Shown here piece by piece: positions 35,229 through 47,605 of a DNA stretch of 64,000 nt (within the stretch, counting starts at the first letter, position 1; each line of letters opens with the position of its first letter). The notes under the pieces are model-generated. The model had not been told where the DNA came from, searched no databases, and saw only the letters and a list, made by a program, of their open reading frames with translations. Both the position numbers and the translations under genes were made by a program. The stretch covers positions 1 through 64,000 of the forward strand of contig NZ_KB907930.1 of assembly GCF_000382285.1 (NCBI RefSeq). The letters run 5' to 3'. Origin of the DNA: Solimonas variicoloris DSM 15731 (lineage in GTDB: Bacteria > Pseudomonadota > Gammaproteobacteria > Nevskiales > Nevskiaceae).

Positions 35229-35232
<4 letters not shown>

Positions 35233-36368
35233 AAGTGCGCGCGGCGGTGCTGCGCGAGATGGGCCGCGCCGCGCCGTACGCCGACTCGCGGCCGCTGGCG
35301 ATCGAGACCGTGGAGCTCGACCCGCCGGGTCCCGGCGAGCTGCTGGTGAAGATCCGCGCCGCCGGCCTCTGCCATTCCGACCTGTCCGTGATCGACGGCT
35401 CGCGGCCGCGCGTGCTGCCGATGGTGCTCGGCCACGAGGCGGCCGGCGAGGTGCTGGCGATCGGCGCCGACGTGCGCGATTTCGCGCCGGGCGACGCCGT
35501 GGTCTTTTCGTTCGTGCCGGTCTGCGGCCATTGCGCCTACTGCGCCGAGGGTCGCGCCGCGCTGTGCGAGCCCGGCGCGCGCGCCAATACCGCCGGCACG
35601 CTGCTGTCCGGCGCGCAGCGCTGGCATGCCGACGGTGCGCCGCTGCACCACCACCTCGGCGTCTCGGCTTTCGCCGAGGCGACGGTCGTCTCGGCGCGCT
35701 CGGCGGTGAAGATCGGCACGCCGGGCGAACCGCGACCGGACTGGGCGATCGCCGCGCTGTTCGGCTGCGCGGTGATGACCGGCGTCGGCGCCGTCGTCAA
35801 CACCGCGCGTGTCGCGCCGGGCGACAGCGTCGCGATCTTCGGGCTCGGCGGCGTCGGCCTGGCGGCGCTGCTCGGCGCGGTCGCCGCCGGCGCCGAGCCG
35901 CTGATCGCGGTCGACGTGCTGCCGGCCAAGCTCGAACTGGCGCGCAGCCTCGGCGCCACGCACACGATCCTGGCGACCGAGCCGGACGCCATGGCGCGCC
36001 TGCGCGAGCTGACGCGCGGCGGCGTGCGCTACGCGATCGAAACCGCCGGCAGCGAAGTGGCGCTGGCCGCCGCCTACGCGGCGACGCGGCGCGGCGGCAC
36101 GACGATCACCGCCGGCCTGCCGGACCCGTCGCGCGAGTTCCGCGTGCCGGCGGTCAGCCTGGTCGCCGAGGAACGCACGGTGAAGGGCTCGTACATGGGC
36201 TCGGCGGTGCCGGCCCGCGACCTGCCGCGCTACCTCGCCCTGCACCGCGCCGGGCGTCTGCCGGTCGAGCGCCTGCTGACCCATCGGCTCGCCCTGGACG
36301 ACATCAACGCCGCCTTCGACCGCCTGGCGCGCGGCGCGGCGGTGCGCCAGGTCATCGAATTTCCGTGA
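35229..36368 (+). CDS. Zinc-dependent medium-chain alcohol dehydrogenase
   Basis: This 379-residue dehydrogenase oxidises an alcohol with NAD(P). The catalytic zinc ligands are Cys in GLCHSDLS near residue 47 and His in LGHEAAGEV near 70. The structural zinc site CGHCAYCAEGRAALC is intact near 100, and the cofactor motif FGLGGVGLAALLGA is near 205. The Asp after it, in IAVDVLPAKLELA, favours NAD over NADP. Length and order fit class III/benzyl-alcohol-type enzymes. It starts with GTG at 35229, whose GTGA overlaps the stop of the thioesterase, so the two were probably cotranscribed. Substrate is unknown; an acyl or aryl alcohol is suggested by context. Confidence 0.88.
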
Positions 36369-36453
36369 CGCGCTAGCAAACTGCGGTCCGGACCCGGAAG
36401 CGCACGCCGCGTCAAGACTGTTGTCGCGGCAAGCCATCGCTACACTTGTCCGG

Positions 36454-37728
36454 ATGCGTCCCGACCTTACCGAAGACCGCCTCGCCGACTGGTTCCAGTC
36501 CGGCGTCGAGCCGGCCGACGTCCCTGCCCTGCACGCGCTGGGCGGTGCCCGTCCGACCCTGCAGGCGCTGATCGCGCTGTTCACCGGCACCGAAGCCGCC
36601 GTGATGATCCGTCTGCTCGTCCTGCACGAGCTGGCGGCGCGCACCGAGCCGTTCGTCAGCGCCGGCGAGCTGCGCCAGCAGTTCCCGTACCTCGACGAAG
36701 GCAAGCTCGAACACCTGATCGGCCGCCTGCGCGTGCACGGCCTGCTGGCCTGGGATTCGGAAACCTCGCGCTACGCCGTCAGTCCGCTCGGCCGCATGGC
36801 GGTCGCCGCGCTCGCCGCGCTGCTGAAGTTCGGCGAGGCGGGCGAGGATCTCGGCTACCTGGCGGCGCAGGTCGCCGGCAGCGGCGCGCTCGGCACGCTC
36901 GCCAAACCGGAGCTGCAGCACCTACTGGCGCGCCTGCTGGAGCTGAAGGACGAATTCGAGCGCGCGATCCTGTCCGGGTCGGAATCGCGCATCCGCGCCG
37001 CCGAGAGCAAGCTCGCCGCCGCCTGGACCTGGGTCGACAAGGGCAGCGACGTGCTGCGCGAGATCACCGACGGCGACACGCTCGACGGGCCGACGCACCG
37101 CCTCGCGCAGCGCATCGGCCAGGTGCAGAGCGAGCTGCTGCGCATGAGCGGCGCCTTCCAGCGCGCGCTCAACCAGCTGGAAAAACAGAAGGTGCCTCTC
37201 GGCGCCAGCGGCCTGTCGTCCTCGGACGTCAACGCCTGGCTGCGCGGCCTCGGCCAGGAACGCCTCGCCGGCCTGCTGCACGGCACGGTGAGCCCGGTGC
37301 CGGACTTCGCGTTCGCGCTCGGCGACATCGCGCTCGACGTCGCCGAGTTCGAGCTGGTCGACAAGCTGCGTCCCGAGAAGCTCGACGCCACGCTGCCGCC
37401 GGCCAGCGACGCGCCGCAGGGCGACGTGCACCTGGAGCCGCCGGACTACGCCGAGCTGGAGCGCTGGCTCGGCGATCTGCGCGTCGCACCGGACGGCTGG
37501 CCGCTGCACGAGGCCGTGCCGCTGCGCGACTACGAGCTGTCGAGCTATCGCCTGTCGCTGCTGGCGCTGCTCGGCGACCGCGAGTCGGCGTCGCTGGCCG
37601 GGCCGGTGGCCGATCTCGCACGCATCGACCGGCGCCTGAAGCTGGGCGACGACATCATCAAAGTGGGACGTGACGGCGTCGCCGAAATGAGCGCCGGACA
37701 CCTGGAGGCTTCGCCGCGTGGAACGTGA
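36454..37728 (+). CDS. Condensin-like subunit A: winged-helix and helical protein, kleisin candidate
   Basis: This 424-residue cytoplasmic protein is not confidently assignable by sequence alone. Residues 55-125 form a winged helix (VMIRLLVLHELAART, ELRQQFPYLDEGKLEHLIGRLRVHGLL, then a YAVSPLGRMAV wing). Residues 150-260 are long helices with heptad-like Leu/Gln spacing, and the C-terminus returns to a mixed fold. That layout matches MukF/MksF/JetA kleisins. The gene precedes a 263-residue winged-helix protein and an SMC-like ATPase in the order MksF-MksE-MksB, overlapping the next gene by 11 bases. The ATG at 36454 is preferred to a TTG at 36421. Kleisin status is inferred from fold pattern and context. 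Confidence 0.6.
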   Translation: MRPDLTEDRLADWFQSGVEPADVPALHALGGARPTLQALIALFTGTEAAVMIRLLVLHELAARTEPFVSAGELRQQFPYLDEGKLEHLIGRLRVHGLLAWDSETSRYAVSPLGRMAVAALAALLKFGEAGEDLGYLAAQVAGSGALGTLAKPELQHLLARLLELKDEFERAILSGSESRIRAAESKLAAAWTWVDKGSDVLREITDGDTLDGPTHRLAQRIGQVQSELLRMSGAFQRALNQLEKQKVPLGASGLSSSDVNAWLRGLGQERLAGLLHGTVSPVPDFAFALGDIALDVAEFELVDKLRPEKLDATLPPASDAPQGDVHLEPPDYAELERWLGDLRVAPDGWPLHEAVPLRDYELSSYRLSLLALLGDRESASLAGPVADLARIDRRLKLGDDIIKVGRDGVAEMSAGHLEASPRGT

Positions 37729-38509
37729 GCTGCAAACCCTGGTCGCGCGCCTGTCCGCGCACCGCGTGCTGTCGCGCAAGGACCCGATGGTCCGCAGGGC
37801 GCTGACCGACGATCTGTTCTACAACGCGCTCAGCGAGCGGCTGGCGGCCTGCGGCCTCGAATTCGTCGAGCATCCGTACGCCGACCACGTCACCCTGCGC
37901 ATCCGCCGCGAGTTCGAGCAGCCGGTGTTCGGCAGCGACGACGCCTGGCTGTCGAACAACCTCGAACTCAAGCGCGACCAGATCGCGCTGCTGGTCGTGC
38001 TGTGGGCGCTGCTGATCCTGCCCAAGCGGCAGCGCCAGATCGAGCGGCAGACCGAACTCGAACGGCTGCGCCAGTCGGAAATGTTCGCCGAGGCCAAGCC
38101 GATCCCGACTGCCGCCGAGCTCGGCATCAACGTCGCCGAGGCGACGCTGCTCGCCGATTTCGGCGAGCGCCTCGGCGGCCGCACGCGCATCAAGAATTTC
38201 GGCCTGCCGGTGCTGTCGCGCCTCGGCTTCATCGAGCGCCGCGACGGTCGCATCTACGAAGGTCCGCTGCTCGACCTCGTGCTCGACTACAAGCGCATGG
38301 CCGAACGCATCCTCAACGGCACGCTGTCCGAGCTGTTCGGCGGCGCCGCCAACGACGCCGACGACGAACTGCCGCCGCCCGCCAACGACGACGACGCGCC
38401 GTCCGACGTCGAACTCGACGCCGACGCCGGCAGCGCCGACGAATTCGCCGCCAACGACGCCGGCGGCGCGCCCCACGACGTGGCCGACGCGCCGCGCCAC
38501 GACGACTAG
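37718..38509 (+). CDS. Condensin-like subunit B: MukE/MksE/JetB-type winged-helix protein candidate
   Basis: This 263-residue protein starts with GTG at 37718 inside the end of the previous gene, so translation is coupled. Residues 1-115 contain a first helical/strand region (MVRRALTDDLFYNALSERL, a beta pattern, then LKRDQIALLVVLWALLI). Residues 125-205 contain a second winged helix with LPVLSRLGFIERRDGRIYEGPLL. Two tandem winged helices are the layout of KITE-type subunits such as MukE, MksE and JetB. The last 54 residues are a strongly acidic, disordered tail (DADDELPPPAN, APSDVELDADAG). It is followed after 11 bases by the SMC-like gene. No direct sequence match is claimed. Confidence 0.6.
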   Translation: MERELQTLVARLSAHRVLSRKDPMVRRALTDDLFYNALSERLAACGLEFVEHPYADHVTLRIRREFEQPVFGSDDAWLSNNLELKRDQIALLVVLWALLILPKRQRQIERQTELERLRQSEMFAEAKPIPTAAELGINVAEATLLADFGERLGGRTRIKNFGLPVLSRLGFIERRDGRIYEGPLLDLVLDYKRMAERILNGTLSELFGGAANDADDELPPPANDDDAPSDVELDADAGSADEFAANDAGGAPHDVADAPRHDD

Positions 38510-38520
38510 ACCAGAACCCG

Positions 38521-41313
38521 ATGTTCAGCTTCCACAAGATCGAAATCGTCCACTGGGACTGGTGGGAACGCTTCACGTTGCCGCTCGACGCCAACATCGT
38601 CACCGTCGTCGGCCCGAACGGCTCGGGCAAGACGACGCTGCTCGACGCGCTGCGCACGCTGCTGGCGATCAACTGTTCGCAGGGCCGCGACTACAAGCGC
38701 TACGTGCGCCGCGCCGATCGTCCGTCGGCGTGGCTGCGCGCGACGGTCTCGAACCCGCGCCGCAGCAACGGCCAGCTGGCGTTCTGGCCGATCACCGACG
38801 AGACCGTCACCCTGTTCTGCCGCATCCGCAAGAAGGGCGGCGACTGGGAACGCAGCTACGGGATCGGCGCCGGCGACGTGCCGGTCGAAGCTGCCGAGAG
38901 CAGCGAGGCGGTGACCTGGATCGGCGTGCGCCAGTATGAATCGCAGCTCGAGAACGCCGGCCTGACGCGCGCGATCAAGCGCGTGCTGGCGCTCGACCAG
39001 GGCCACACCGACAAGCTCTGCGAATACTCGCCGCGCCAGCTGCTCGACCTCGTGTTCGACGTGTTCGGCGATCAGGAAGTGCTCGACAACTACCAGAAGG
39101 CGCGCGAGGACCAGCTGGCCTGCGCGCGCGAGCTCGACGAACTCAAGACCCAGCTGGCGCGCCTGCACACCCAGCTGCAGGCCGCCGAAGCCGACGTCAA
39201 CTCGTACCGCGAGTACGAGCGCCTGCTCGGCGAGCTCGCCGATCTCACCGGCCAGTGGCTGCCGCGCCTGCAGCTCGCCGAGCTGCTCGACAGCCTGCGC
39301 GGCGGCCGCGCCCAGCTGCTCGGCAAGCGCCGCGAAGTCGCCGAACTCGGCGCCCAGCTCGCACGCCTCGCCGACGAGCATGGCGCGCTGGTCCGCGAGC
39401 GCGAAGACACCGAAGCCGCCGAAGCCGACAGCAAGGCGCAAATGGAAAGCCTGCAGAAGCAGGAGCGCCAGATCGAACGCCCGCTCGGCAAGGCGCAGGC
39501 CGTGCTCGAACAGCGCAAGCGCCTGCTCGACCAGCTCGCCGAGCAGGGCGAAGGGCTCGACACCGAAGCCGCGCTGCGCGAACAGGAAAAGCTCGGCCGG
39601 CGCCGCTACGAGCTGCAAGGCCAGATCGACGGCGTCGACCGCGAGATCGGCGAGCTGCAGTCGCGCATCGCCGCGCTCGACAGCGGCCGCCGCCCGGAGC
39701 CACGCGAAGTCAGCGCGTTCTCGCAGGCGCTGCGCGATGCCGGCATCGCCCACTGCATGCTCGGCGACATCGTCGAGATCACCGACGACACCTGGCAGCT
39801 CGCGGTCGAATCGGTGCTCGCTGGCGTGCGCCATCTGGTGCTGCTGGAGAAGCCCGGCGACCGCGCCGCGGCCTGGCGTCTCGGCGAGCAGCACCGCTAT
39901 CGCCATTACGTCGTGCCCGACCGCGCGCCGGCGCCGCTGCCGCAGCGCGGCTCGCTCCTCGAATGCGTGCGCTTTCACGCCGATCCGCCGGTGTGGCTGG
40001 CCAAGCTGCTCGACGGCATCCAGCGCGTCGACAGCACCGAGGATGGCGCGCGCCTGCCGGAGAGCCAGTCGTGGATCACGCCGCGCGCCTATCAGCGCGA
40101 GCGCCGCGGCGGCCGCGACATCAGCGTCGCCGACGTGCACTTCGGCCGCAACGCGGTCGCCGATGCACGCCGCCGCCTCGAAGAGCTGAAGGACCAGCGC
40201 GAGGGTCTGCGCGAAGCGCTGGCGATCGCCACGCGCAAGCTCGCCGACGTGCAGTCGGCGCTAGCCGGCGTCGACGCCACGCGCGAGATCGCGGCGCGCG
40301 CACCGGAATTCGAGGCCGCCGAAGCCGAAGCCGCGCGCCTCGCGCAGGAACTCGAGGACATCAGCGCGGCGCGCGCCGCAGCAGCGGCGCGCTACTACGA
40401 GATGTCGCAGGCGCTGCACCGCCTCACCTCGCGGCACGACCGCACCGAGGAAGCCTTGCAGAAGACGCGCGGCCGCCAGCAGCAGCTGCAGGCCGAGTTC
40501 GAGCAGTCGCGCCGCGCCTACGCCGCGCACGTGCTCGAATGGCGGCGCCTGCGGCGCGGCAAGCCGGCCGACTGGCGCAGCGCGGCGGCGATGGCAGAGG
40601 CGCGCGCCCGCTACGACTCCAGCGGCGCGGTCGAGCGCGAGATGGAGCGCCTGCACCGGCGCCGCGACGACGGCCGCTGGAACACCGACGCCAATTGCGT
40701 CGCGATCCGTGACAAGCTCGATGCCGAGCATCGCCAGCTCGAATCGCGCATCACCGACCAGGACGTGCATCTCGAACGCGCGCGCAGCAGCACCGATCGC
40801 GCGCGCAGCCAGTACATCGGCGTGCTGCGCGCAACGGTGCGCCGCTACGCACAGAACCTGCGCCACCTCGGCGCGCTGGCCGGCATCGACGTCGAAGTCG
40901 AGCCGCCGCAGCTGACCAACGACGACCTCACGCTGTCGCAGGCGCGCCTCGAAGTGCAGTTCAACTTCGACCAGAAGGGCATGATCGGCCTCAACGACGG
41001 CGAGGCGTCCGGCGGCCAGCAGGTGATGAAGTCGATGATCCTGCTCGTCGGCCTGCTGATGGACGAGGACCAGAGCGGCGGCTTCGTGTTCATCGACGAA
41101 CCGTTCGCGCACCTCGACATCTTCAACATCGACAAGGTCGGCGCCTTCCTGCAGGCGACGCGCGCGCAGTACATCGTGACGACGCCGAACACGCACAACG
41201 TCAACGTCTTCAAGCCGTCCGGCCTGACGCTGGTCACGCAGAAGAAGCGCGGCACGACCAAGTACGCACCGCCGATCGCCTTCCTGCGCCGCGACACCGC
41301 GCCGGCGCCCTGA
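38521..41313 (+). CDS. SMC-like ATPase, MksB/JetC-type condensin motor candidate
   Basis: This 930-residue protein has the SMC layout. An N-terminal ATPase half has Walker A GPNGSGKTT at 31-39. A long coiled coil runs over about 185-390, and a globular hinge-like middle over about 395-560 (FSQALRDAGIAHCMLGDIVEI, QLAVESVLAGVRHLVLL). A returning coiled coil covers about 565-790. The C-terminal half has the ABC signature ASGGQQ near 829-833 and Walker B FVFIDEPFAHLD near 857-868. The length fits the short-armed MksB group better than MukB. SGGQQ is a less usual signature than the SGGE or SGGQK of other SMCs. It ends a three-gene operon; a convergent aldehyde dehydrogenase follows, and no JetD-type gene is present. 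Confidence 0.75.
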   Translation: MFSFHKIEIVHWDWWERFTLPLDANIVTVVGPNGSGKTTLLDALRTLLAINCSQGRDYKRYVRRADRPSAWLRATVSNPRRSNGQLAFWPITDETVTLFCRIRKKGGDWERSYGIGAGDVPVEAAESSEAVTWIGVRQYESQLENAGLTRAIKRVLALDQGHTDKLCEYSPRQLLDLVFDVFGDQEVLDNYQKAREDQLACARELDELKTQLARLHTQLQAAEADVNSYREYERLLGELADLTGQWLPRLQLAELLDSLRGGRAQLLGKRREVAELGAQLARLADEHGALVREREDTEAAEADSKAQMESLQKQERQIERPLGKAQAVLEQRKRLLDQLAEQGEGLDTEAALREQEKLGRRRYELQGQIDGVDREIGELQSRIAALDSGRRPEPREVSAFSQALRDAGIAHCMLGDIVEITDDTWQLAVESVLAGVRHLVLLEKPGDRAAAWRLGEQHRYRHYVVPDRAPAPLPQRGSLLECVRFHADPPVWLAKLLDGIQRVDSTEDGARLPESQSWITPRAYQRERRGGRDISVADVHFGRNAVADARRRLEELKDQREGLREALAIATRKLADVQSALAGVDATREIAARAPEFEAAEAEAARLAQELEDISAARAAAAARYYEMSQALHRLTSRHDRTEEALQKTRGRQQQLQAEFEQSRRAYAAHVLEWRRLRRGKPADWRSAAAMAEARARYDSSGAVEREMERLHRRRDDGRWNTDANCVAIRDKLDAEHRQLESRITDQDVHLERARSSTDRARSQYIGVLRATVRRYAQNLRHLGALAGIDVEVEPPQLTNDDLTLSQARLEVQFNFDQKGMIGLNDGEASGGQQVMKSMILLVGLLMDEDQSGGFVFIDEPFAHLDIFNIDKVGAFLQATRAQYIVTTPNTHNVNVFKPSGLTLVTQKKRGTTKYAPPIAFLRRDTAPAP

Positions 41314-41356
41314 GCCGGCCGCGGCGGCGCCTCGGCGCGGCCACGCCGCGCGCCGT

Positions 41357-42787
41357 TCAGGCCGGCGAGCGCACGACCAGCAGGCGCGGCTCGGTCAGGT
41401 GCTCGATCGCGTAGGCCACGCCTTCGCGACCGAGCCCGGACTGCTTCACGCCGCCGTAGGGCATATGGTCGACGCGGAAGCTCGGCACGTCGCCGATCAC
41501 GACGCCGCCGACTTCGAGGCGGTTCCAGGCCTTCTCGATGCGGCCCAGGTCGCGTGTGAACACGCCGGCCTGCAGGCCGTAGTCGCTGGCGTTGACGGCA
41601 TCGAGCGCGGCATCGAAATCGTCGAACGCGGCGAGCATCGCGACCGGGCCGAACGCCTCCTTGGTCGACAGCTCGCAATCGGCCGGCACGTTTTCGAGCA
41701 GCGCCGGCGACAGCATCGCCCCGCGCCGCTCGCCGCCGCACAGCAGCCGCGCGCCGCGCTGCTGCGCCGCGCCGATCCAGCGCTCGAGCCGCTGCGCCTC
41801 GGACTCGGCGATCATCGGCCCGATGAACGTGTCCTCCTGCTTCGGATCGCCGCACTTGAGCGCGCGTACCGCGGCCGTCAGCTTCTCGCGCAGCGCCGCG
41901 TACAGCGAAGCGTGCGCGTAGATGCGCTGTACGCTGATGCACGACTGTCCGGACTGGTAGTAGGCGCCGAACACGAGGCGCGACACGACGAAATCGAGAT
42001 CGCTGCCCTCGTCGACGATGCAGCCGGCGTTGCCGCCGAGTTCGAGGATCACCGGCTTGCGTCCGGCGCGCGCCTTCATGTCCCAGCCGACCGCCGGCGA
42101 GCCGGTGAACGACAGCAGCTTGAGGCGCTCGTCGCGGACCAGCGCGTCGGCGTCCGCCGCCCGGCACGGCAGGATCGAGAACGCCCCGGCCGGCAGCGCG
42201 GTTTCGGCGAGCACCTCGCCGATCAGCAGCGCGCCGACCGGCGTCGCGCTCGCCGGCTTGAGCACGAACGGGCACCCGGCAGCGATCGCCGGCGCGATCT
42301 TGTGCGCGGCGAGGTTCAGCGGAAAGTTGAACGGGCTGATGAACGAAACCGGCCCGACCGGCACCCGCTTGAGCAGCGACCAGTAGCCTTTCGCGCGCGG
42401 CCCGATGTCGAGCGGCCGATAGTCGCCATGCTGGCGCACCGCTTCGCCGGCGGCGTAGCGGAAGGTGTCGATCAGGCGCGTGACTTCGCCGCGCGCATCG
42501 CGGATCGGCTTGCCGGCTTCGACGCACAGCGCCTGCGCGAATTCCTCGGCGCGCGCCTCGAAGCGCCGCGCGCAGTGTTCGAGCACCGCCTGGCGTTCGT
42601 AGGCCGGCCATTCGGCCATCGGCCGCGCCGCGGCGGCCGCGGCGGCGATCGCCTCGTCGAGCAGCGCCGCGTCGGCGAGCGCGACGCGGGTCGCCAGCGC
42701 GCCGGAGTACTTGTCGCTGACGTCCAGCGTGCGCCCGCTTTCACGCGGGCGATTGGCGAGATAGAGCGGATAGTGGGACTTGAGCAC
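41357..42787 (-). CDS. NAD(P)-dependent aldehyde dehydrogenase
   Basis: This 476-residue aldehyde dehydrogenase oxidises an aldehyde to the acid. The catalytic Cys is in YYQSGQSCISVQR near residue 287. The Glu general base is in ILELGGNAGCIV near 253. The oxyanion Asn is in FISPFNFPLN near 150, and GVKQSGLGREG lies near the end. The chosen GTG start at 42787 gives MLKSHYPLYLANRP and the usual family length, with GGAG upstream; the open frame reaches 42979 but the extra part is Arg/Ala-rich and unlike the family. It resembles the lactaldehyde/glyceraldehyde-type clade, but the substrate is undetermined. It is convergent with the SMC-like gene. Confidence 0.87.
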   Translation of the reverse strand: MLKSHYPLYLANRPRESGRTLDVSDKYSGALATRVALADAALLDEAIAAAAAAARPMAEWPAYERQAVLEHCARRFEARAEEFAQALCVEAGKPIRDARGEVTRLIDTFRYAAGEAVRQHGDYRPLDIGPRAKGYWSLLKRVPVGPVSFISPFNFPLNLAAHKIAPAIAAGCPFVLKPASATPVGALLIGEVLAETALPAGAFSILPCRAADADALVRDERLKLLSFTGSPAVGWDMKARAGRKPVILELGGNAGCIVDEGSDLDFVVSRLVFGAYYQSGQSCISVQRIYAHASLYAALREKLTAAVRALKCGDPKQEDTFIGPMIAESEAQRLERWIGAAQQRGARLLCGGERRGAMLSPALLENVPADCELSTKEAFGPVAMLAAFDDFDAALDAVNASDYGLQAGVFTRDLGRIEKAWNRLEVGGVVIGDVPSFRVDHMPYGGVKQSGLGREGVAYAIEHLTEPRLLVVRSPA

Positions 42788-44203: not shown

Positions 44204-47200
44204 TTACGGCCGGCGCAGGTCGAGCGTGCACGGAAAGTCCGGATTGGGACTTTCGACGCCGAGCGCATAGCGGCCCGGCGTATGGCCGATCGCCTCGAAA
44301 CGCGCGATGCGGCGCGCCTCGGCCTCGAACGCGTTGACCGGGAAGGTGTCGTAGTTGCGACCGGCCGGGTGCGCGACATGGTAGGTGCAGCCGGCCAGCG
44401 CGCGACCGCTCCAGCGGTCGTACAGATCGAACACCAGCGGCGTGTGCACGCCGATCGTCGGATGCAGACAGGCATACGGCCGCCAGGCGCGGTAGCGCAG
44501 CCCGGCGACGGTCTCGCCGCGCACGCCGGTCTCGCGCATCGGCAGCGGACGACCGTTGCAGGCGACAACGTAGCGGCCCGGAACAAGATTCTTCGCGCGG
44601 ATCTGCAGGCGCTCGACCGAGGAATCGACGAAGCGCGTCGTGCCGCCGCCGCCCGGCTCCTCGCCGAGCACCGGCCAGGGCTCGAGCGCGTGGCGCAGCT
44701 CGACCTCGACGTCCTCGTAGCGAAACACACCGTGGCGCGGAAAGCGGAACTCGAAGTGCGGCGCGAACCAGTCGTGCTCGAACGCGAAGCCGGCGCCACG
44801 GAGATCGGCAACGACCTCGCCGAGATCGCGCCAGTTGTCGTACGGCAGCATCCAGCGGTCGTGCAGCGCCGTGCCCCAGCGGATCAGCGGCTTGGTGTAC
44901 GGCTCGCGCCAGAACCAGGCGATCAGCGCGCGCACCAATAGCTGCTGCACGAGACTCATGCGCGCGTGCGGCGGCATCTCGAAGCCGCGCAGCTCGACCA
45001 GACCGAGGCGGCCGGTCGGGCTGTCCGGCGAGTACAGCTTGTCGATGCAGAGCTCGGCGCGGTGCGTGTTGCCGGTCAGATCGACCAGCAGGTTGCGCAG
45101 CGTGCGGTCGACGATCCAGTGCGGCACCTGCCAGCCCTTGGCCGGCAGCTGCGCCAGCGCGATCTCCAGTTCGTAGAGCTGCGTATCGCGCGCCTCGTCG
45201 ACGCGCGGGTGCTGCGAAGTCGGGCCGATGAACAGGCCGGAGAACAGGTACGACAGCGACGGATGGTTCTGCCAGTAGCGGATCATGCTGCCGAGCACGT
45301 CCGGCCGGCGCAGGAACGGCGAGTCTTCGGTGCGCGCGCCGCCGACGACGACGTGATTGCCGCCGCCGGTGCCGACGGCACGGCCGTCGATCAGGAACTT
45401 CTCGGTCGACAACCGCGCCTGGAACGCGGCTTCGTATAGCGTCACGGTGTTGTCGCGCAATTCCGGCCACGAGCGGGCCGGCTGCACGTTGACCTCGATG
45501 ACGCCGGGATCGGGCGTGATCTTGAGGATCTCCAGACGCGGATCGTGCGGCGGCGCGTAACCTTCGATGCGCACCGGCAGCCGCGTCTCGGCGGCGACGT
45601 CCTCGATCGCCGCGACCAGATCAAGAAAATCCTCGGTGCGCGCAACCGGCGGCAGGAAGACGTTGATCCAGCCTTCGCGCGGCTCGACCGCGAGCGCGGT
45701 GCGCACGTTGCTGCCGTTGAGAAACAGGCCGCTCGCCCGCTGCGGCGGCTGTTCCGGCCGCCAGCGCTGGCCGCCGGCCAGCGCGCGCGGCTCCTCGCGA
45801 CCCTGCAGCTGCAGGAAGGGCTGGCGGCGCGGATCGGTCTCCGGCAGCGTCTCCGGCACCGAGTACGGATCGGCCGGATACGTCACCGGCACACCGCCGC
45901 TCGACGTGGCCGGCAGCGATTCGAGCGGCAGGCGCAGGCCGATCGGCGAATCGCCCGGAAGCAGGAACAGCTTGCCGGTGCGCAACAGCCAGCGCTCGCT
46001 CATCCAGCGCGCGGCCGCCTGCCAGCGCTGGATCGGCAGCGCATAGCCGCGCGGCGCGCCGAGGCCACGCTCGAACACCTGCGTCAGGCGCGCCCGCTCC
46101 TCAGGGTCCTTCAGGCGGTTGTCGGTCGGATCGAGATTGATCGGCAGCTTGCGCTCCCGGACCAGGTAATGCAGCGCGTCCTCATAGGCCTCGACCACAT
46201 TGCGCGGATCGACTTCGAGACGCTCGGCGAGGCTCAGCGTGAACTGATTGGCCTGCAGCAGCGTCGGCGCACGCGCTGCGTCGGGTTTGACGACCGGCGC
46301 GCGCCACAGCGGCTGTCCGTCGCGTCGCCAGTACAGCGTGTAGACCCAGCGCGGCAGCGATTCGCCCGGATACCACTTGCCCTGGCCATAGGTCAGCAGG
46401 CCCTGCGGCGCGTAGTGATCGCGCAGGCGCAGCGCCAGATCGAGCGCGCGGTTCGACTTGGTCGGACCGACCGCCGAGGTGTTCCACTCCTCGCCCTGCG
46501 GGTCGTCGGCGGCGACGAAGGTCGGCTCGCCGCCCATCGTCAGGCGCACGTCGTCGACACGCAGCTGATGGTCGACGCGATCGCCGAGCGCATCGATCGC
46601 CTGCCACTGCGCGTCGCTGTACGGCTTGGTGACGCGCGGCGTCTCGAAGATGCGGGTCACGCCCATCTCGTGGCCGAACTCGACCTCGCACTCGTCGACG
46701 AGGCCGGTGATCGGGGCGGCCGACGACGGCTCCGGCGTCGCCGACAGCGGAATGTGCCCTTCGCCGGCGAACAGGCCGGAGGTCGGATCGAGGCCCAGCC
46801 AGCCGGCGCCCGGAATGTAGACCTCGGCCCAGGCGTGCAGATCGGTGAAGTCTTCCGCGGCGCCGGCCGGGCCTTCGAGCGGCTTGACGTCGGGCTTGAG
46901 CTGGATGAGGTAGCCGGACACGAAACGCGCCGCCAGGCCGAGCTGACGCAGGATCTGCACCAGCAGCCACGACGAGTCGCGGCACGAGCCGGACTGCTTC
47001 TCCAGCGTTTCCTCCGGCGTCTGCACGCCGGGTTCCATGCGGATCAGATAGCCGATGTGCAGCTGCAGATTGCGGTTGAGCTCGACGATGAAATCGACGA
47101 TCGACTTCGCCTCGCGCGGCACCGCAGCCATGTACTGCGCCAGCAGCGGTCCGGCCGGGTCCGGCGTCAGATAGGGCTTGAGCTCCGCCTTGAGCCCGGG

Positions 47201-47521
47201 CTCGTACTCGAACGGGTACGTCTCGGCGTATTTCTCGACGAAGAAATCGAACGGATTGATGACGGCGAGATTGGCGACCAGATCGACCGTCACCTCGAAC
47301 TCGGTCACTTGCTCCGGAAAGACGACGCGCGCCTGCCAATTACCGAACGGATCCTGCTGCCAGTTCAGGAAGTGCGGATCGGGCTGCACCTTCAGCGAGT
47401 AGCTCAGCACCTCGGTGCGCGTGTGCGGCGCCGGGCGCAGACGGATCAGCTGCGGCGACAGCGACACCCGCCGGTCGTAGCGGTAGATCGTCTTGTGGTG
47501 CAGCGCGGCGTGGATCGACAT
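44204..47521 (-). CDS. Large transglutaminase-like protein with DUF2126 domain
   Basis: This 1105-residue protein fuses two parts. The N-terminus (1-290) is a bacterial transglutaminase-like domain with its beta-rich lead (MSIHAALHHKTIYRYDRRV) and the Cys-His-Asp triad: Cys180 in GSCRDSSW, His229 in DLHAWAEV and Asp245 in LGLDPTSG. The rest (about 320-1105) is DUF2126, including GEPTFVAADDPQGEEWN, GKWYPGESLPRWVYTLYWR, TGGGNHVVVGGA and GGRNYDTFPVNAFEAEARRIARF-type blocks. Such proteins are usually encoded beside alpha-E and circularly-permuted ATP-grasp partners in peptide-ligation-like loci; none is here, so it stands alone. The start is the ATG at 47521; no ribosome-binding site is obvious. 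Confidence 0.85.
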   Translation of the reverse strand: MSIHAALHHKTIYRYDRRVSLSPQLIRLRPAPHTRTEVLSYSLKVQPDPHFLNWQQDPFGNWQARVVFPEQVTEFEVTVDLVANLAVINPFDFFVEKYAETYPFEYEPGLKAELKPYLTPDPAGPLLAQYMAAVPREAKSIVDFIVELNRNLQLHIGYLIRMEPGVQTPEETLEKQSGSCRDSSWLLVQILRQLGLAARFVSGYLIQLKPDVKPLEGPAGAAEDFTDLHAWAEVYIPGAGWLGLDPTSGLFAGEGHIPLSATPEPSSAAPITGLVDECEVEFGHEMGVTRIFETPRVTKPYSDAQWQAIDALGDRVDHQLRVDDVRLTMGGEPTFVAADDPQGEEWNTSAVGPTKSNRALDLALRLRDHYAPQGLLTYGQGKWYPGESLPRWVYTLYWRRDGQPLWRAPVVKPDAARAPTLLQANQFTLSLAERLEVDPRNVVEAYEDALHYLVRERKLPINLDPTDNRLKDPEERARLTQVFERGLGAPRGYALPIQRWQAAARWMSERWLLRTGKLFLLPGDSPIGLRLPLESLPATSSGGVPVTYPADPYSVPETLPETDPRRQPFLQLQGREEPRALAGGQRWRPEQPPQRASGLFLNGSNVRTALAVEPREGWINVFLPPVARTEDFLDLVAAIEDVAAETRLPVRIEGYAPPHDPRLEILKITPDPGVIEVNVQPARSWPELRDNTVTLYEAAFQARLSTEKFLIDGRAVGTGGGNHVVVGGARTEDSPFLRRPDVLGSMIRYWQNHPSLSYLFSGLFIGPTSQHPRVDEARDTQLYELEIALAQLPAKGWQVPHWIVDRTLRNLLVDLTGNTHRAELCIDKLYSPDSPTGRLGLVELRGFEMPPHARMSLVQQLLVRALIAWFWREPYTKPLIRWGTALHDRWMLPYDNWRDLGEVVADLRGAGFAFEHDWFAPHFEFRFPRHGVFRYEDVEVELRHALEPWPVLGEEPGGGGTTRFVDSSVERLQIRAKNLVPGRYVVACNGRPLPMRETGVRGETVAGLRYRAWRPYACLHPTIGVHTPLVFDLYDRWSGRALAGCTYHVAHPAGRNYDTFPVNAFEAEARRIARFEAIGHTPGRYALGVESPNPDFPCTLDLRRP

Positions 47522-47605
47522 GGCTCTCTTCGGTTTTCGCGAATCTGCTGGCAAAAGCGATGCCATGGTCCGGCACCGCACGCCTCCTATACTGTCGTCT
47601 CACCG

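Follow-up and report, generated by a model that had tools for sequence, protein, structure and literature searches.

A three-gene SMC operon of Solimonas variicoloris as a probable nuclease-free second condensin from a Wadjet/Mks-like lineage

What does a condensin-like operon do in a genome that also encodes canonical Smc, when the nuclease carried by sister loci is missing? This question is raised by three adjoining genes, here called A, B and C, in a 64,000-nucleotide window of Solimonas variicoloris DSM 15731 (the whole stretch analysed, contig NZ_KB907930.1, positions 1 to 64,000). The reading favoured here, to which we give a probability of about 0.6, is that the genes encode a three-subunit SMC complex which would be a nuclease-free second condensin of a new lineage of the Wadjet/Mks superfamily, the JetD-type nuclease being gone in the lineage of the window.

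The three-gene operon proposed in a preliminary description of this DNA was borne out in its coordinates, order and spacing (Table 1). All three reading frames are open and run in one direction, with an overlap of 11 bases between A and B and a gap of 11 bases between B and C. An alternative start of A, a TTG upstream at 36421, would give a protein of 435 amino acids. Related cassettes were studied at 28 loci chosen as intact (loci and genomes are cited below by L and G numbers). A, B and C were open and in the same order at all 28, so the association is not due to chance; the gaps ranged from -17 to +27 bases, apart from a B-C gap of 273 bases in L070.

Gene C encodes an SMC ATPase. As previously described, it carries a Walker A motif (GPNGSGKTTL), an ABC signature (SGGQQV) and a Walker B motif (FVFIDEPFAHL), and among the 28 aligned C proteins the signature and Walker B were invariant, as was Walker A except for its proline. 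The signature had been called unusual, but in the type I-like set 12 of 18 JetC proteins also read SGGQ. Pfam SMC_N matched C (E 1.1e-14), and the top PADLOC model was JetC (1.4e-21, with the strongest stretch over the coil and hinge), followed by LmuB of Lamassu (6.5e-18). When a C profile made from the 28 relatives was compared by hhalign with 16 JetC proteins, a match of 100% over 545 columns was obtained (E 4e-40); the matches to MksB (92.6%, 57 columns) and MukB (82.5%, 98 columns) were narrower. Because coiled coils inflate full-length profile scores, the hinge and the head of C were tested separately. Residues 385-560 matched the JetC hinge at 99.0% (E 4.7e-18; column-shuffled control 0.1%) and the Smc hinge at 97.9% (E 3.9e-13; column-shuffled control 0.3%). 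The middle of C gave 1.4% with each of the MksB and MukB middles, the limits of which were guessed, and 0.1% with that of SbcC.

The head tree was built from 54 head-piece sequences over 286 columns (model Q.pfam+G4, supports from the unrooted tree). The C family formed a single clade (100/100). JetC I, II and III, MksB and MukB grouped together without it (83/87), the MksB set pairing with MukB (69.9/83) and not with C, and the heads of Smc, RecN and SbcC were separated from the side of the C family (72/83). Because of the hinge match and the placement of the head, C is assigned to a separate deep branch of Muk/Mks/Jet-like SMC proteins, the deeper supports of the tree being moderate. Membership of the Mks/Jet superfamily, as first proposed, is thus upheld for C, whereas the match to the named MukFEB, MksFEB and JetABC families is not, the head lying outside all of them. 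Grouping of the head with Rad50/SbcC or RecN had been named as an outcome that would speak against the proposal, and the head fell apart from SbcC and RecN. That C is a repair ATPase of the Rad50/SbcC or RecN type with two unrelated neighbours seems extremely improbable: general AAA and Rad50 models do match it weakly, but it has an SMC hinge, a CxxC zinc hook was found in none of the 28 C proteins, its head lies outside SbcC and RecN with moderate support, and A and B are linked to C at every locus studied.

Genes A and B probably encode a kleisin and a KITE protein, respectively, as suggested by their position, their size and low-confidence winged-helix-like secondary structure. For A, no Pfam family above cut-off and no PADLOC or NCBIfam match was found; for B, no model of these three libraries was above cut-off. 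Neither protein matched the MukF, MukE, MksE, DUF3375 or DUF4194 models. PF21980 (MksE) was absent among the matches of B, for which a Pfam scan at E<=10 gave three other families, and a PDB search with a profile of A gave chance-level matches only. A failure of A and B to match any kleisin or KITE profile had also been named as speaking against the proposal. This is formally what was observed, but the profile test has no power for A, as the sampled JetA groups and MukF likewise miss each other (A against JetA by hhalign, 1.9% at most). Profile comparisons of A with MksF and MukF gave no match either. A weak collinear match of B to JetB was found by hhalign (10.7%, P 0.003, 154 columns). Against six JetB/MksE/MukE sets, B gave one collinear match at 11.2% (score 28.2, versus a maximum of 18.2 in five shuffles) and values of 0.2-3.0% with the other five. 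The AlphaFold2 models of A and B were built from three near-identical sequences and are unusable (mean predicted local distance difference test score, pLDDT, 38.8 and 44.8, respectively); in the low-confidence model of A, winged-helix-like patterns were seen at residues 47-124 and at residues 360-404, the latter with pLDDT below 50. The acidic tail reported for B is present (54 residues, with 18 D/E and 1 K/R). Its standing as a notable feature was not sustained: the tail measures 9-74 residues across the 28 relatives and in three of them has 9 residues, one of them acidic, and because of this variation it is not a defining feature.

The locus had been described as an operon without a nuclease partner. 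This is correct for the window, but a jetD gene directly after C in close relatives was missed. Such a gene is present in 6 of the 28 loci (L014, L015, L016, L036, L066 and L067); its start lies between 4 bases upstream and 7 bases downstream of the end of C, and it encodes 396-420 amino acids. The three copies scanned with the PADLOC JetD models (L014, L015 and L016) gave best E-values of 3.9e-11, 5.3e-11 and 4.2e-8, and in two of these proteins Pfam DUF2399 was below cut-off. The JetD-like family of seven members, one of them a plasmid copy, matched JetD at 96.9% by hhalign (E 1.3e-10). Its proteins keep the TOPRIM residues (EN, DxD and the C-terminal EQE) and form their own branch beside JetD I-III in a tree (support 100); a PDB search with their profile gave chance-level matches only.

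The absence of JetD next to C was confirmed at the locus and extended to the genome of the window (G000), a draft of 48 contigs that is 99.35% complete. The seven-member JetD profile had matches in exactly the six JetD-bearing genomes of the 28 and none at E<=0.001 in the other 22, G000 included, and PF09983 and PF09664 also gave no matches in G000. A JetD-like nuclease encoded elsewhere and missed by the profiles used is considered quite improbable. The draft state of the assembly would favour it, as would the JetD-less genomes G005 and G006, which hold a DUF2399 gene elsewhere, though inside an apparent separate type III Wadjet. Against it, the family profile and PF09664 found nothing in G000 or in both Solimonas relatives, PF09983 found nothing in G000, and the single chance-level match of an earlier three-member JetD profile in G000 (E 0.03, residues 112-193) lay outside the TOPRIM part. 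Away from the cassette, PF09664 matched in G005, G006 and G477, and below its cut-off in G448. The loci of the first three genomes were read as separate Wadjet operons, of type III in G005 and G006 (L192 and L193) and of type II in G477 (L194); these genomes also have a JetD-less cassette.

Repeated dropping of jetD in this lineage is the best reading of the trees and of one remnant of the gene in a relative. In the A-B-C tree, the clade of the window was sister to the JetD-bearing L014/L015 (support 85), with the JetD-bearing L016 next (100), and the JetD tree repeated the order of L014/L015 and L016. The JetD-less L063 was sister to the JetD-bearing L066 (support 100), their C proteins being 94% identical. 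The DNA similarity of these two loci continues for 33 bases beyond the stop codon of C, into the start of the L066 jetD, and picks up again no more than three bases from the end of jetD, inside the downstream gene that both loci share. In L063 the start codon is retained at the corresponding position, and an in-frame segment is similar to the N-terminus of JetD (46% over 28 residues). The protein match of this segment is not significant on its own (E 0.11, with a better chance match in L060, E 0.035), and the segment was called a jetD remnant because of its frame, its place and the DNA comparison with L066, not its protein score. Neither the window nor the other JetD-less loci showed a recognisable remnant of jetD. 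On the A-B-C tree, at least five changes of jetD state were counted by Fitch parsimony and eight losses by Dollo parsimony with midpoint rooting. The small protein gene directly downstream of C or JetD in this pair (L063 14209-14619 and L066 4074-4484) resembles what we take to be a DUF5615/PIN-like toxin family.

Purifying selection still acts on genes A, B and C where the nuclease is missing. The ratio of non-synonymous to synonymous substitution rates (dN/dS, NG86) of C was 0.04-0.14 over seven JetD-less pairs. Between the window and S. marina the ratios were 0.21 for A, 0.23 for B and 0.11 for C, and between the window and S. flava 0.14, 0.41 and 0.04; the JetD-bearing pair L014/L015 gave 0.13, 0.15 and 0.13, with 0.28 for JetD. 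In Solimonas, selective constraint on A and B may be somewhat weaker. A decaying, functionless remnant of a Wadjet-like system, as suggested for the jetD-less Wadjet I of Stenotrophomonas, is very improbable here. The nuclease is missing, and decay of the cassette does occur, as G111 holds a broken copy (L037 2342-5757) with A across several frames and fragments of JetD; however, 22 of the 28 loci, chosen as intact, lack JetD but have kept their reading frames open and their ATPase motifs whole, and C shows the low ratios given above.

The distribution of the cassette was assessed through gene A in overlapping genome samples, with matches in 30 genomes in total. Of 85 genomes from the order of the window (its own genome counted), 11 had A, as did 3 of 369 genomes of the class (one of the three degraded), 14 of 200 genomes of the order of G448 and 7 of 398 genomes of the phylum sample, one of these matches being weak. 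The degraded copy (G111) and the weak match (G404; 58 residues, E 2.1e-5) were set aside from the 28 loci. The closest named copies of A were those of Solimonas flava (97%), which is placed in the order Nevskiales, and S. marina (88%). Canonical Smc was above cut-off in all 28 genomes, in two of them in pieces; that of the window's genome lies at G000:C2:141955-145416. A plasmid search gave three records with JetD and no A, and viral contigs gave one weak locus for C and none for JetD or A. On plasmid 2 of Variovorax sp. RA8 (L071 7499-10050), a cut-down C and a JetD of this lineage lie beside an IS1071 transposase, followed by an xseA/xseB pair.

The complex might still act against plasmids or phages, sensing small circular DNA by loop extrusion and then silencing it, sequestering it, mis-segregating it or recruiting a host nuclease. 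This alternative is considered unlikely. In its favour, the relatives with four genes have the appearance of a complete Wadjet, the cassette is patchily distributed, and in the Solimonas pairs C evolves more slowly than A and B. It is countered by the genomic context. No defence gene was found among the five window neighbours scanned (AMP-binding, alcohol dehydrogenase, aldehyde dehydrogenase, SnoaL-like and DUF2126), and several JetD-less copies adjoin neighbours named by eye: the operon follows a folE-like gene in seven loci of g311/g328 and lies between ispA-like and dxs-like genes in three loci of g10. The seven folE loci include the JetD-bearing L066 and L067. In addition, the available part of PMC10586767 ties plasmid cleavage to JetD.

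In the favoured reading of a nuclease-free condensin, a dimer of C would form the SMC ATPase, closed by A as the probable kleisin and B as the probable KITE protein, in a lineage that would stand beside Wadjet JetABC, MksBEF and MukBEF and is not filed in the libraries searched. Its ancestral or alternative form would be the cassette of four genes, the last of which encodes a TOPRIM nuclease of the JetD type. With the nuclease gone in the lineage of the window, the remaining complex would most likely load on DNA, extrude loops by ATP hydrolysis and act as a second, non-essential condensin beside the host Smc, with chromosome organisation as its putative function. This suggests that a machine of defence has been converted to, or retained for, the harmless organisation of DNA.

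Several observations weigh against this reading. The top NCBIfam model for C is Smc, at 106 bits, a score far below the cut-off of 567 (TIGR02168), so that C does not qualify as a Smc-ScpAB member; the full-length scores of C are inflated by its coiled coils; and the kleisin role of A and the KITE role of B are not established by sequence or by the AlphaFold2 models. The ratio of B between the window and S. flava is higher than the others. The patchiness of the cassette (11 of the 85 genomes from the order) is equally compatible with a defence module that can be dispensed with, and the folE context cannot separate the two roles, because JetD-bearing loci share it. Loss and gain of jetD are ambiguous at several nodes. 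When the A-B-C tree was compared with the Smc tree for 26 of the 28 genomes (G008 and G009 were left out, their Smc being in pieces), 15 of 23 splits were common and the Mantel correlation was 0.953, a value reached by none of 999 permutations. The other eight splits disagree with the Smc phylogeny, and some of them are fully supported, such as the grouping of G576 with G600 (100) and of G049, G051 and G052 beside Solimonas (100). These conflicts indicate that horizontal transfer of the cassette has probably occurred, and they weaken a purely vertical loss of jetD.

A wider possibility, which we put forward tentatively and at somewhat less than even odds, is that this is a fourth deep Wadjet-like lineage that in nature switches between two forms, one of four genes that cuts plasmids and one of three genes that is a condensin without a nuclease, with L063 seen just after loss. 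If true, one motor would serve either defence or chromosome organisation, as set by one detachable gene. A standard defence library can also miss such systems, since A and B match nothing in PADLOC.

The features of the operon are collected in Table 1. A zinc alcohol dehydrogenase gene (35229-36368) is the upstream neighbour on the same strand, and an aldehyde dehydrogenase gene lies downstream of C on the opposite strand. A pattern scan of 36300-41450 found no sigma-70-like promoter, a result that says little. Elsewhere in the window (44204-47581, minus strand), a large gene encodes a fusion of a transglutaminase and a DUF2126 amidoligase-like protein, unconnected to the operon.

Table 1. Positions of the genes and motifs of the SMC operon in the window
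Feature	Coordinates	Strand	Remarks
Gene A	36454..37728	+	424 amino acids; candidate kleisin; JetA/MksF position
Gene B	37718..38509	+	263 amino acids, GTG start; candidate KITE; JetB/MksE position
Gene C	38521..41313	+	930 amino acids, SMC ATPase; JetC/MksB position
Acidic C-terminal tail of B, probably disordered	38345..38506	+	residues 210-263
Walker A (GPNGSGKT) of C	38611..38634	+	read from sequence
Hinge region of C, limits as tested	39673..40200	+	residues 385-560
ABC signature SGGQQ of C	41008..41022	+	28/28 invariant
Walker B (FVFIDE) of C	41083..41100	+	28/28 invariant

Among known systems, Wadjet JetABCD shares the gene order A-B-C(-D) with this lineage, C matches JetC by profile including the hinge, and in sister loci a TOPRIM JetD is the next gene after C. 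The window differs from Wadjet in lacking JetD, which was recognised in 6 of the 28 family genomes, and in the length of C (930 amino acids, compared with 1115-1223 for JetC in the type I-like set); the C head also lies outside the sampled JetC I, II and III, and A and B match no DUF3375 or DUF4194 model. In Stenotrophomonas maltophilia, according to the available part of PMC11680222, Wadjet I is found in 82% of strains, the commoner variant lacks jetD, and this variant has highly conserved jetABC genes and is judged probably inactive by its authors. The lack of jetD beside three conserved genes is shared with the JetD-less loci studied here, whereas the location described there, with recBCD between yfcA and mlaF, was not noticed by eye in them. 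Lamassu differs in that, although LmuB ranked second for C, A and B match no PADLOC model (no LmuA or LmuC), and Rad50/SbcC differs by its zinc hook.

MksBEF resembles the operon of the window in having three genes, no nuclease and a canonical Smc alongside, and in the f165 set MksB is close to C in length (933-946 amino acids in 12 of 14); no JetD-like gene was recognised by eye next to those 12 loci. However, in the f165 loci L145-L156 the Walker A of MksB reads GANNLGKS and its signature stretch, placed by eye, has no SGG, unlike C. The MksB heads were not grouped with C, and B has no PF21980 match. A search of 148 f165 genomes at E<=1e-20, run with no positive control, detected no member of the C family. 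The MksG nuclease is the subject of PMC10123090, as far as its available part goes. MukBEF shares the kleisin-KITE-SMC operon logic (order F-E-B), but the genome of the window has canonical Smc and C is much shorter than MukB (930 versus 1486 amino acids); the MukB N model scored 16.7 bits on C, below its cut-off of 23, and A and B gave no MukE or MukF match. The lineage was not named in the titles or abstract openings of the literature matches listed, from a search that most subscription papers fall outside. For MksBEF of Pseudomonas, loss of the nuclease had already been proposed, for Wadjet I of Stenotrophomonas it had been reported, and a review proposes, in its available part, that MukBEF and MksBEF may derive from plasmid-defence SMC systems (PMC10586767). 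The present lineage, its jetD remnant and the evidence of selection look new, and because closely related loci such as L063 and L066 differ in the presence of the nuclease, the step from defence to chromosome organisation can be tested directly in this lineage.

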